From positions 62,001-126,000 of the forward strand of contig NZ_FRBI01000014.1 in NCBI RefSeq assembly GCF_900142575.1: DNA of 64,000 nucleotides. The letters run 5' to 3'. A model generated the notes under the pieces. The model was given only the letters and a program-made list of their open reading frames with translations, made no database searches and was not told the DNA's origin. The translations under genes and the position numbers were made by a program. Positions 50,632-55,562 of this stretch are shown one piece after another (the first letter of the stretch is position 1; every line of letters begins with the position of its first letter). Source of the stretch: Actinacidiphila paucisporea (lineage in GTDB: Bacteria > Actinomycetota > Actinomycetes > Streptomycetales > Streptomycetaceae).

Positions 50632-51049
50632 CTCTCGCCCGCTCCTCCACCAGTCCCCCGCGGAACGCCGGAAGGAGACCGGATCACCTGGGACGACACC
50701 CATTTTTCCTCCGCCGGCGTCCGGATCAACCGGGTTTTCTGCCCGCCCAGGCGTCTCCATCGTTTCGCGGCAGGCGCGGGGGCGCGCGGGGCGGGGGCGC
50801 GCCCCCGCCGCTGCCTCAGGTGGACGTTTGGCACCACCAGTGCGCGAAGCGCCCCCTTTCACGCCATACCAGGTCCGAGCGCCCGCTGGTTGGCTTGGTT
50901 CCGCGGTCGGGGCGCCTTGCCATGGGGGGCGCCCGGGCCGCGTACCTGCGTCCATCCGCCGGGAGGAAAAACGTGTCCACACCGGAAGGCGTCACCGGTT
51001 CGGCGGCCGAAGAACGGCCGCGCGGCCGAGCGACCCAGTGGAGTACGCC
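50632..51049. promoter_or_regulatory. divergent promoter region of the APH and terpene cyclase genes
   Basis: 418 bases with no convincing gene. It must hold promoters for both directions. The frame of the cyclase is open through much of it, but the composition is unlike a protein and no start there has a ribosome site. In other Streptomyces a cyclic-nucleotide-binding regulator gene stands here; it is absent. Confidence 0.45.
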
Positions 51050-52099
51050 ATGAGCACTCCCGTGAACGCCGACGCACCGCGCCGGCTGCCCGGGCCGCCG
51101 ACCCTCGTCCGTCCCCGGCGCGGCGGAGCGATCCCCGGGCTCCGATACCGGCCCGCCGTCCCGGCGGACCCGGTGAAGGTCGAGGAGGTCGACCGCAGGG
51201 TGGAGGCCTGGGCGAGGGAGCTGGACCTCTTCCCGCCGGCCTGGAACGGCGACTTCGCCGGCTTCCAGTTCGGCCGGGCCGTGGTGCTCCAGCACCCGCG
51301 CGCCGCCGACCTGGACCGGGTGACCGTCGCCGGCCAGTTGCTGCTCGCCGAGAACCTGGTCGACAGCTGCTACTGCGAGGAGGACGAGGGCCGCGGCGGG
51401 TCGCACCGCGGGCTCGGCGGCCCGCTGGTCATGGCCCAGTCGGCGATCGACCCCTTCCACGGCACGCCGGAGCTGGAAGCCGAGTGGCGGCAGGGCGTGC
51501 AGGCCGACGGGCCGCTGCGTTCCTACCACTGGGCGATGAAGGACTACGCCGCCTTCGCCACCCCAAGCCAGACCGACCGTTTCGTGCACGACATGGCCCG
51601 CCTGCACCAGGGCTACCTCGCCGAGGCCGCCTGGGCGGAGACGCGGTATGTCCCGAAGGTGTGGGAGTACCTGGTCATGCGGCAGTTCAACAACTTCCGC
51701 CCGTGCCTGTCGCTCGTGGACGCGATCGACGGCTACGAGCTGCCCGAACCGGTCTACGCCCGCCCCGAGATCCAGCGGATCACGGCGCTGGCCTGCAACG
51801 CGACCACCATCGTCAACGACCTGTACTCCTTCGCCAAGGAGATGGCGAGCGACCCCGAGCACCTCAACCTGCCGCAGGTGGTGGCCGCCAACGAGGGGCG
51901 CGGCCTGAAGGCCGCCTATCTGCGGAGCGTCGAGATCCACAACGCGATCATGGCGGCCTTCGAGGAGGAGGCCGCGACGCTGTCGGTGACCTCGCCCGTC
52001 GTGGAGCGCTACGCCCTGGGCCTGTCCGACTGGGTGGCCGGCAACCACGAATGGCACGCGACCAACAGCCACCGCTACTTCCTGCCCAACTACTGGTGA
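51050..52099 (+). CDS. 2-methylisoborneol synthase-like terpene cyclase
   Basis: 349-residue class I terpene cyclase. It converts 2-methyl-GPP to 2-methylisoborneol, the earthy/musty odorant. The core matches the family: RQFNNFRPCLSLVDAIDGYELP, the NSE motif NDLYSFAKE, and the C-terminal WHATNSHRYFLPNYW. Two oddities. The Asp-rich motif, DDCYCED in characterised enzymes, reads DSCYCEE here, so the second Asp is Ser. The Pro/Ala-rich N-terminus is also about 90 residues shorter than in S. coelicolor SCO7700 (about 440 aa). The ATG at 51050 has GGAG 6 nt upstream. The adjacent methyltransferase supports the assignment; 2-methylenebornane synthase is an alternative. Confidence 0.88.
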   Translation: MSTPVNADAPRRLPGPPTLVRPRRGGAIPGLRYRPAVPADPVKVEEVDRRVEAWARELDLFPPAWNGDFAGFQFGRAVVLQHPRAADLDRVTVAGQLLLAENLVDSCYCEEDEGRGGSHRGLGGPLVMAQSAIDPFHGTPELEAEWRQGVQADGPLRSYHWAMKDYAAFATPSQTDRFVHDMARLHQGYLAEAAWAETRYVPKVWEYLVMRQFNNFRPCLSLVDAIDGYELPEPVYARPEIQRITALACNATTIVNDLYSFAKEMASDPEHLNLPQVVAANEGRGLKAAYLRSVEIHNAIMAAFEEEAATLSVTSPVVERYALGLSDWVAGNHEWHATNSHRYFLPNYW

Positions 52100-52210
52100 C
52101 CCCGCGCACATCCGCGCACATCCGCGTCCCCGCGCGTCCTCGCGACGCACCCGCGGCGACCGGCAGCACCGCACCCGTACCAGCACACGCACCAGCACGA
52201 GGAGCCACCG

Positions 52211-53083
52211 TTGGCCATCACCCAGTCCGGCGCCACCGTTTCGCTGCCCGCCCAGTCCACGTACCAGAGCCGCGTCGCGGACTACTGGAACGCCGAGCAG
52301 AACCCGGTCAACCTCGAACTCGGCGGGATCGACGACCTGTACCACCACCACTACGGCGTCGGTGACGTCAAGTGGTCCGTACTCGACGAGTCCGATCCCG
52401 CGCGGCGGGCCGAGCGGGTCACCGCGGAACTGCACCGACTGGAGCAGGCGCAGGCCGAGCTGCTCGCCTCCCGTCTCGGGCCGCTCTCCCCCGCCGACCG
52501 GGTCTTCGACGCCGGGTGCGGGCGCGGCGGCGGCAGCGTGGTGGCGCACCAGCGCTACAACTGCCATGCCGACGGCGTGACGCTCTCCACCAAGCAGGCG
52601 GACTTCGCCAACAGCCAGGCGCGCGCCCGGGGCATCGACGGCAAGGTGCGCTACCACCACCGCAACATGCTGGACACCGGCTTCACCACGGGCGCCTACG
52701 CGGCGTCCTGGAACAACGAGTCCTCCATGTACGTGGAGCTGGACCTGCTGTTCGCCGAGCACTCCCGGCTGCTGCGCCGCGGCGGGCGCTACGTGGTGAT
52801 CACCGGCTGCTACAACGACACCTACGGGCAGGCCTCCCGTGAGGTGTCGCTCATCAACGCCCACTACATCTGCGACATCCACCCGCGGTCGGAGTACTTC
52901 CGTGCCATGGCCCGCCACCGCCTCGTCCCCGTCCACGTCGAGGACCTCACGCAGGCCACCATCCCGTACTGGGAGCTGCGCAGGACCGCGGAGCACCTGG
53001 TCACCGGCATCGAGGACACGTTCCTGACGGCGTACAAGAACGGCAGCTTCCAGTACCTGCTGATCGCGGCCGACCGGGTCTGA
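52211..53083 (+). CDS. gdpmt: geranyl diphosphate 2-C-methyltransferase
   Basis: 290-residue SAM-dependent methyltransferase that adds a methyl group at C2 of geranyl diphosphate to make 2-methyl-GPP, the substrate of the cyclase upstream. Visible features are the SAM motif VFDAGCGRGGGSV (residues ~95-108), SWNNESSMYV, and ITGCYNDTYG. The N-terminus SRVADYWNAEQNPVNLELG and length match S. coelicolor SCO7701. The start is TTG at 52211 with GAGGAG 6 nt upstream. 111 nt after the cyclase, same strand; probably one operon. Confidence 0.94.
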   Translation: MAITQSGATVSLPAQSTYQSRVADYWNAEQNPVNLELGGIDDLYHHHYGVGDVKWSVLDESDPARRAERVTAELHRLEQAQAELLASRLGPLSPADRVFDAGCGRGGGSVVAHQRYNCHADGVTLSTKQADFANSQARARGIDGKVRYHHRNMLDTGFTTGAYAASWNNESSMYVELDLLFAEHSRLLRRGGRYVVITGCYNDTYGQASREVSLINAHYICDIHPRSEYFRAMARHRLVPVHVEDLTQATIPYWELRRTAEHLVTGIEDTFLTAYKNGSFQYLLIAADRV

Positions 53084-53166: not shown

Positions 53167-54180
53167 TCAGGCCAGCGTCGCGACCAGGACGGCCTTGATG
53201 GTGTGCATACGGTTCTCGGCCTGGTCGAAGACGACGGAGTGCGCCGACTCGAAGACCTCGTCGGTGACCTCCAGCTCGCTCAGCCCGTACTGCTCGTGGA
53301 TCAGCCGGCCGACCTCGGTGCCGAGGTCGTGGTAGGCGGGCAGGCAGTGCAGGAACTTCACGTCGGGCTTGCCGGTGGCCCGCAGCACGTCCATCGTCAC
53401 CGCGTACGGCGCGAGCGCGGCGATCCGCTCGGCCCACACCTCCTTCGGCTCGCCCATCGAGACCCAGACGTCGGTCACCACGAAGTCGCAGCCCAGGACG
53501 CCTTCCGCGATGTCCTCGGTGAGCAGGACCGTCGCGCCGGTGGTCTCGGCGAGCTTGCGGGCGCGGGCGACGACGTCCTCGCTCGGCCAGTACGCGCGCG
53601 GCGCCACGATCCGCACGTCGAGGCCGAGCAGGGCGCCGGTGACCAGATAGGAATTGCCCATGTTGAACCGGGCGTCGCCGAGGTAGGCGAAGGCCACACC
53701 GCCGGAGCCGAGGCCCGCGACGCCGCCGCCGGTGTGCTCGGCCATGGTGAGCACGTCGGCGAGCATCTGCGTGGGGTGCCAGTCGTCGGTGAGCCCGTTG
53801 TAGACCGGCACACCGGCGTGCAGCGCGAGCTCCTCGACGGCGGTCTGGCTGGCGCCGCGGTATTCGATCGCGTCGAACATCCGGCCCAGCACCCGGGCGG
53901 TGTCCTTGACCGACTCCTTGTGGCCGATCTGGGAGCCCGCCGGGTCCAGGTACGTGGTGGCGGCGCCCTGGTCGGCCGCGGCGACCTCGAAGGAGCAGCG
54001 GGTCCTGGTGGACGTCTTCTCGAAGATCAGCGCGATGTTGCGACCTCGCAGCCGCGGCTCCTCCGCACCCGCCCGCTTGGCCGCCTTGAGGTCGGCGGCC
54101 AGCTCCACCAGGCCGAGGAACTCCTCGGGCGTGAAGTCCAGCTCCTTGACGAAGTGGCGGCCCTTGAGATCGACGGCCAT
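53167..54180 (-). CDS. arcB: ornithine carbamoyltransferase
   Basis: 337 residues. Interconverts ornithine plus carbamoyl phosphate and citrulline. The carbamoyl phosphate site is STRTR (residues 57-61); other motifs are HPTQ in DDWHPTQML and the ornithine-site Cys in [10 protein letters not shown]. Position next to arginine deiminase indicates the catabolic role: splitting citrulline so that carbamoyl phosphate can yield ATP. The ATG at 54180 has GAGGAG 7 nt upstream. The 140-nt gap before it contains an AT-rich block (GTATAGACTT on the minus strand) that may be a separate promoter. No carbamate kinase gene follows. Confidence 0.93.
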
Positions 54181-54320
54181 GCGGGGACTCCTCGGTCGGT
54201 GGTTCATCGGTAACTGTGGAAGTCTATACGAGGATAGGCATTCTTATACAGCCCCTTCTCCGGCTTCCCTGGCGCTGCGGCACGGCTCCCTGCCGTCGGC
54301 ATCCGTGGCTGCGTCCCAGC

Positions 54321-55562
54321 TCACACCGCGTCGCGCTCGATCGGGCAGCTCATACAGCGCGGCCCGCCGCGGCCCCGGCCCAGCTCGCTGCCCGGAATCT
54401 CGATCACCTCGATGCCGCGCTTGCGCAGGAAAGTGTTGGTGGTCGCGTTGCGCTCGTAGGCCACCACCACGCCGGGCTCCACCGCCAGCACGTTGCAGCC
54501 GTCGTCCCACTGCTCCCGCTCGGCCGCGTGCACGTCCTGCGTCGCGGTCAGCACCTTGACCGAGTCCAGTCCGAGCGCCGCCGCGATGGCCCGGTGCATG
54601 TGCTCGGGCGCGTGGTCGGTGACCTTCAGCTCGCCGTACTCCGCGCCGGGCTCGATGGTGTACGACGGCAGCATCCCCAGGCCCGCGTACTGCGTGAAGG
54701 TGTCGCCGTCGACCATCGTCATCACCGTGTCCAGGTGCATGAACGCACGCCGCTTCGGCATGTCGAGCGCCACGATGGTCCGCGCCGACCCCGCCGCGAA
54801 CATCCCGCGGGCCAGCATCTCCACCGCCTGCGGGGTGGTCCGCTCGCTCATCCCGATCAGCACCGCGCCCGACCCGATCACCAGCACGTCCCCGCCCTCG
54901 ATCGTCGAGGGATACGCGCTCTGGCCCTCCGACCAGACGTGGAAGCCGCCGTCCGCGAAGAGCGGGTGGTGCCGGTAGATCGCCTCGAAGTGCACGGTCT
55001 CGCGCCGGCGGGCACGCCAGCGCATCGCGTTGATGCTGACCCCGTCGTAGACCCAGGCGGAGGTGTCCCGGGTGAAGATGTGGTTCGGCAGCGGCGCGAG
55101 CAGGAAGTCGTCCAGGTCCATGGCGTGGAAGCGGACCGAGACCGGCTCCGCGAAGCGGTCCAGGAACTCCCGCTTGGTCATCCCCCCGACCAGCGCCTCG
55201 GTCAGCTCCGCCGGGGCGAGCCGGTCGAACGCCTCCCGCAGCGGCCCGGTGGCCAGTGGCCCGTACTCCTTCTCGTCGAACACCCGGTCCAGCACGAGCG
55301 CCTTGGCGGCGGGCGACGCCAGCGACTCGGTCAGCAGGTCGCCGAACAGGTGCACCTCGACCCCGCGGTCCCGCAGCACGTCGGCGAAACCGTCGTGCTC
55401 CGCACGGGCCCTGCGCACCCACAGGACGTCGTCGAACAGCAGCGCGTCCTTGTTCGTCGGCGTCAGCCGCTTCAGCTCCAGGTCGGGCCGGTGCAGGATG
55501 ACGCGGCGCAGCCGCCCGGTCTCGGAGTCCACGTGGAAGCCCATGAAAGCAGAGCTTCCCAC
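54321..55562 (-). CDS. arcA: arginine deiminase
   Basis: 413 residues. Hydrolyses arginine to citrulline and ammonia. Substrate-site features include [13 protein letters not shown], the Asp in [18 protein letters not shown], the His in [10 protein letters not shown], and the catalytic Cys near the end in [10 protein letters not shown]. The start is uncertain. A GTG at 55562 gives [16 protein letters not shown]; an ATG at 55544 would give a shorter product. Neither has a strong Shine-Dalgarno. Followed by arcB. In an aerobic actinomycete this pathway supplies ATP or ammonia under low oxygen or acid. Confidence 0.93.

Follow-up and report, generated by a model that had tools for sequence, protein, structure and literature searches.

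The locus described here bears on the question of why bacteria wrap an enzyme that makes a volatile compound in a virus-like shell. The window analysed, a stretch of 64,000 nucleotides from Actinacidiphila paucisporea (contig NZ_FRBI01000014.1), encodes side by side a terpene cyclase resembling the synthase (2-MIBS) of the earthy-smelling compound 2-methylisoborneol (2-MIB) and a geranyl diphosphate 2-C-methyltransferase (GPPMT), and does so without the Family 2B (F2B) encapsulin shell gene that accompanies the pair in most relatives. Judging from sequence comparison, we consider it probable that the locus descends from a C11-terpene operon linked to an encapsulin and has become shell-free, and that it most likely still makes 2-MIB. 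Since close kin with and without the shell exist and the ends of the deletion can be read, yield, product profile and timing could be compared between them without engineering.

The two-gene 2-MIB-type locus that a preliminary description had placed here was found, with both open reading frames present (Table 1), and its statement that the methyltransferase looks normal holds as well: the protein scores 454 bits against the GPPMT equivalog NF041943 (cut-off 400), which provides the adjacent GPPMT expected of a 2-MIB pathway, and 362 bits against the structure 4F84. The cyclase reaches 411.4 bits against NF041167, the family of encapsulin-cargo 2-MIBS-like proteins, which is near the cut-off of 400. 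By sequence, the solved structures nearest to it are 4ZQ8, a terpene synthase of Streptomyces lydicus, and then the 2-MIB synthase of S. coelicolor. Its AlphaFold model (mean pLDDT 79, falling below 50 at residues 1-25 and 109-125) matched 4ZQ8 best (81% identity, TM-score by target 0.93), followed by 4LA6/3V1V of S. coelicolor (~50% identity, TM-score by target 0.90-0.92). Directly downstream, on the opposite strand, positions 53167-55562 encode an ornithine carbamoyltransferase (Pfam) and a second protein that we take to be arginine-deiminase-like; this neighbourhood, with argF and arcA downstream, is common to a group of seven shell-less loci that includes the window (support 93).

Table 1. 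Features of the cyclase-methyltransferase locus (window positions) and of the orphan F2B encapsulin of the same genome
Feature	Position	Strand	Details
Scar of deleted F2B encapsulin gene	50962..51013	+	GGAGG, GTG and the beginning of the coding sequence (~14 codons; VSTPEGVTGSAAEE...)
Residual ORF of 26 codons from the old shell start	50973..51053	+	Stop TGA overlaps cyclase ATG (ATGA)
Probable encapsulin 3' end remnant and old intergenic ribosome site	51016..51049	+	GGAG at 51040-51043; aligns with tail and spacer of L212
2-MIB-synthase-like class I terpene cyclase, short N-terminus, D[S/N]xYCEE clade	51050..52099	+	ATG, 349 aa; NF041167 411 bits, PF19086 104.8 bits, 4ZQ8 657 bits, 3V1V 381 bits
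N-terminal LPGPPTL peptide, residues 13-19	51086..51106	+	GP kept in relatives; putative role
Asp-rich motif DSCYCEE, residues 105-111	51362..51382	+	S/N at second position in 86/90 clade loci
NSE metal-binding triad NDLYSFAKE, residues 256-264	51815..51841	+	N, S and E invariant in 154/154 rows
GPPMT (geranyl diphosphate 2-C-methyltransferase)	52211..53083	+	TTG, 290 aa; matches to NF041943 and 4F84
Orphan F2B encapsulin, window genome (L006, L225)	G000:C45:536936-538282

Relatives were collected by a single scan covering 84,980 species genomes, and the best 80 of 137 matches (74-89% identity) were kept. For motif counts, genus genomes were added and copies removed, giving 154 rows, 90 from the clade of the window cyclase and 64 from other 2-MIBS-like proteins; L010-L013, L019, L020 and L031-L033 (treated as copies of genus genomes) and L224 had been left out before these counts. 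Among the best 80 of the 137 relatives, GPPMT lies downstream of the cyclase in every case, and an F2B encapsulin homologue, a gene with a cNMP domain, lies upstream in 72. The spacing is tight in the clade, the shell stop usually being no more than 20 nt from the first cyclase codon, and is mostly 110-690 nt in other loci. Outside the clade, encapsulin was found nearby in 49 of 60 comparison regions, a non-random sample hand-picked from the listed matches above cut-off; in the other 11 no encapsulin match was detected within ~6 kb, and most of these regions still have the GPxGLGT motif. A side case is L129 (G103): its 2-MIBS-like cyclase lacks any methyltransferase match, and the encapsulin ~2.7 kb upstream is a distant one, at 45% identity.

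At the window locus, the intact F2B shell gene that should stand beside its cargo in an F2B encapsulin operon is absent, and the lack of a cNMP-binding partner reported earlier extends to the whole 64 kb (tblastn, best E-value 0.27, at noise level). Within the genus, a clade cyclase (at least 81% identity) was present in 19 of the 35 genus genomes searched; a clade-type shell adjoins it in nine, and in the other ten, including the window genome, no clade-type shell was detected anywhere in the genome. Of the three features that the preliminary description singled out (motif, short N-terminus and missing partner), all of them beyond chance, the missing shell is the one that is truly derived at the window locus. 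That the gene has merely moved elsewhere can be discarded, because the one F2B encapsulin of this genome, on another contig, belongs to a different lineage.

What became of the shell gene can be read from the DNA directly ahead of the cyclase, which indicates that the gene was deleted and left a scar. A GGAGG ribosome site (50962-50966) is followed by a GTG start at 50973 and then by ~14 codons. Over 41 nt this head aligns locally with the opening codons of the L028 encapsulin gene, scoring 29 where no shuffle exceeded 15, and the ribosome-site-and-start block is identical to that of L212 at 30 of 32 positions, while the DNA further upstream is homologous to the L212 shell promoter region (84/109 positions). 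The tail remnant of the window is by itself not significant, as 14 of 100 shuffles score as well. The residual ORF that starts at the old shell GTG may be translationally coupled to the cyclase; its stop, for its part, is inherent in ATGAGC. In the sister locus L206 (93% cyclase identity) both shell ends survive in one reading frame, with scores of 23 for the head and 40 for the tail against shuffle maxima of 16 and 20. When head and tail were compared with 100 dinucleotide shuffles for each of 12 non-redundant shell-less loci (24 comparisons in total), one or the other beat all shuffles in nine. The shell tail is retained in L219 and L069; only weak scars were seen in L208 and L214, and none in L073. 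In L209/L012 (Actinacidiphila bryophytorum) the cyclase appears to begin at the GTG of the dead shell gene, its N-terminus thereby gaining a few shell-derived residues. L069 also carries a longer encapsulin pseudogene remnant 220 nt upstream of its cyclase (tail score 43, best shuffle 20); being a Streptomyces locus outside the group of the window, it probably represents an independent shell loss. A literature search covering sources other than bioRxiv and most subscription papers returned no report of shell deletion scars, and no volatile or product data for strains of the clade or for any DSCYCEE enzyme.

The preliminary description had also taken the cyclase to lack most of the disordered N-terminal region. 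The short N-terminus is real, with ~30 aa ahead of the catalytic domain, and the S. coelicolor enzyme aligns with the window cyclase only from chain residue 94 onward; the whole clade has it, however, even beside a shell gene. It is, from the alignments, a clade-wide mark and no loss particular to the window. With the shell stop usually within 20 nt of the first cyclase codon, a long N-terminus would not fit, and the clade survey shows that linkage to a shell gene does not depend on the long canonical N-terminal domain. Most members of NF041167 have a disordered N-terminal domain of ~100-120 aa with a GPTGLGT consensus (PMC8346489), which the window cyclase does not have. Short 2MIBS homologues of ~330 aa are known, and the S. 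coelicolor enzyme became more active, at 238%, once its N-terminal domain had been removed (both PMC10520479). An earlier start was considered, as no stop interrupts this frame over 164 codons upstream, and was ruled out by the position of the shell stop in shell-linked relatives and by the conserved ribosome-site-plus-start pattern. That the long N-terminus and the shell were lost together was likewise ruled out, most short-form loci having a shell.

What the clade does share near its N-terminus is a peptide with the consensus LPGPPNLARSLRARR, lying close before IPGLRYRP. Its GP is present in 12/12 shell-less and 71/72 shell-linked proteins, and agreement of the LPGPPTL peptide with the consensus is 0.81 in the former versus 0.86 in the latter. 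GPxGLGT itself occurs in none of the 84 clade proteins examined (L014, L043, L046, L048 and L076, for which no start was chosen, and L223 having been left out before this count) and in 54 of 64 non-clade rows. The clade peptide is similar to the canonical stretch RGPSGLGTAGLHLARRE; it may represent the GPxGLGT cargo motif in compact and degenerate shape. On the shell side, the N-arms of the L017, L187, L188 and L190 encapsulins and of L006 carry SLGTxAARQLATTTKS-like strings, whose LGTxAAR recurs in GPTGLGTSAAR, the cargo motif of canonical cyclases; the cargo tag of these cyclases may mimic the N-arm of the shell itself.

The Asp-rich motif DSCYCEE noted in the preliminary description is indeed present, the second Asp of DDxxxE that one expects in a class I cyclase being replaced by Ser106. 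It had been read there as an oddity that could alter activity, and the survey of other actinobacterial cyclases that was proposed in the same place speaks against this. Ser (73) or Asn (13) is the rule at this position among the 90 clade rows, Asp occurring in only four, and Asp is found in 64 of the 64 other cyclases; among the best 80 of the 137 relatives alone, the motif begins with DS in 65, DN in 13 and DD in two. Ser or Asn at the second Asp is, on this survey, a mark of a widespread Streptomyces/Actinacidiphila clade and no peculiarity of the strain. The second motif, NDLYSFAKE, is intact in the window cyclase. None of the 154 rows departs from the first Asp, the NSE residues or the C-terminal RY pair expected of class I, and at the position of the motif glutamate 89 of the 90 clade rows carry Glu, the remaining one having an alignment gap. 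The substitution accompanies a longer acidic loop (EEDEGRGG in the window): the loop after the motif has its greatest length, 15, in all 86 S/N clade rows, with lengths of 12, 14, 15 and 15 in the four DD clade members and 12-14 in other cyclases. A 2-MIB producer that lacks the second Asp has moreover been published, Pseudanabaena dqh15 with DGYYAD (PMC3072421), and mtf and mtc of a cluster 99.55% identical to that of dqh15 sufficed for 2-MIB production in E. coli, no cnb gene being needed (PMC10580876); the cyclase tested there presumably also has DGYYAD. The second Asp is therefore not required in the wider family. Across the entire actinomycete clade it appears free to vary under purifying selection.

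From family knowledge and the published pathway, the chemistry would most likely be as follows. The methyltransferase would convert geranyl diphosphate to 2-methyl-GPP, which the Mg2+-dependent class I cyclase would ionise and cyclise, most likely to 2-MIB. The ancestor would have been a three-gene operon in the order F2B encapsulin shell, cyclase, GPPMT, with the cyclase presumably the cargo of the shell. A deletion would then have taken out almost the whole shell gene. What is left of it, its ribosome site, start codon and opening codons behind the old promoter region, now runs straight into the cyclase, and both enzymes are probably expressed from the former shell promoter. Because there is no cognate shell, they are probably free in the cytosol.

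Other explanations can be offered for the enzyme and for the operon. The Ser and the acidic loop could have shifted the main product to 2-methylenebornane or another C11 terpenoid, which we regard as rather unlikely. The lengthened loop of all 86 S/N members and the mere ~50% identity to S. coelicolor 2-MIBS would fit such a shift, as would the kinship of 2-methylenebornane synthases, which are close relatives of 2-MIB synthases acting on the same substrate (PMC5908152). However, the catalytic residues are invariant as described, a producer with Gly at the second Asp has been published (PMC3072421), L215 and L222 carry DD within an otherwise ordinary clade member, and NCBIfam files the methyltransferase as a GPPMT, all of which argues against such a shift. 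It could also be that shell loss was a first step in losing the whole pathway, the enzymes being no longer useful. The shell gene is gone in several lineages, and cyclase dN/dS (Nei-Gojobori) is slightly higher in the seven shell-less loci, with a mean of 0.26 (21 pairs, dS 0.12-0.43) versus 0.18-0.25 in five shell-linked groups hand-chosen from the tree, so that a mild relaxation is possible. A ratio of 0.26 over such divergence nevertheless points to purifying selection and to a pathway that is kept; with catalytic residues intact and GPPMT retained throughout, decay seems to us very improbable.

The fate of the cyclase after shell loss may be viewed differently, in that it could have been loaded into an orphan F2B encapsulin found genus-wide. 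Such a further F2B gene is present in all 23 genus genomes searched, and the GPPxL peptide has no clear decay in shell-less species (GP in 12/12), although this peptide may be a plain part of the enzyme, or the time elapsed may be too short. The orphan is only 54-57% identical to clade shells, the whole range being 54-60% (the extra F2B gene of G063 falls at 57-60%), whereas the clade shells that were compared share 67-88% with one another, and an orphan occurs also in G021, G032 and G067, which have no match to a 2-MIBS-type cyclase. We regard re-housing as unlikely. A Pfam scan of eight ORFs at the orphan locus of the window genome, the shell gene included, revealed no known cargo type; a Bestrophin-like and a VTT-domain protein are its neighbours. 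If true, re-housing would be a natural case of cargo swapping between encapsulin lineages. A broader scenario, in which encapsulation is dispensable, the shell has been deleted repeatedly in one actinomycete clade and a compact N-terminal tag is selected via re-housing in a second F2B shell, is similarly a long shot. The reverse history, with the shell-less arrangement ancestral and encapsulin gained later in other lineages, is hardly credible. The cyclase-plus-GPPMT tree requires five changes in shell presence, two to three of them being forced by well-supported branches, and such counts on an unrooted tree are blind to gain versus loss; but L206 retains both shell ends as a scar, the window retains the head, and L219 and L069 retain the tail, the shell-less loci are few and nested, and non-clade cyclases mostly lie near an encapsulin. 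Deletion of the shell from an encapsulin-linked operon, with about five losses on the tree, remains the reading that we prefer.

Among known systems, the cyanobacterial mtf-mtc clusters with cnbA/cnbB are comparable. Those of Pseudanabaena (PMC3072421, PMC10580876) share with the locus a 2-MIB-type pathway and, in one strain (PMC3072421), a missing second Asp (DGYYAD), and they have capsid-like neighbours with cNMP domains; unlike in the window, the mtf-mtc pair still lies between its two cnb genes, and the sequences are distant. S. coelicolor 2-MIBS (3V1V, 3V1X, 4LA5, 4LA6) agrees with the window cyclase in its catalytic domain, its NSE triad and its RY pair, but is ~50% identical, reads DDCYCED and bears a long proline-rich N-terminal domain. 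The F2B encapsulin operons with 2-MIBS-like cargo described by Andreas and Giessen (2021; PMC8346489) have the order shell, cyclase, methyltransferase, as do the relatives of the window; in the window, by contrast, the shell gene has apparently been deleted, and its clade is without the long N-terminal domain or GPxGLGT. Closest is 4ZQ8 of S. lydicus (EFI-540129), whose entry title names no product: it is ~80-81% identical and has the short N-terminus, a non-DD motif and the same acidic loop, but with Asn in place of Ser (DNCYCEE), and at its locus (L017), unlike at that of the window, the shell gene stands directly upstream.
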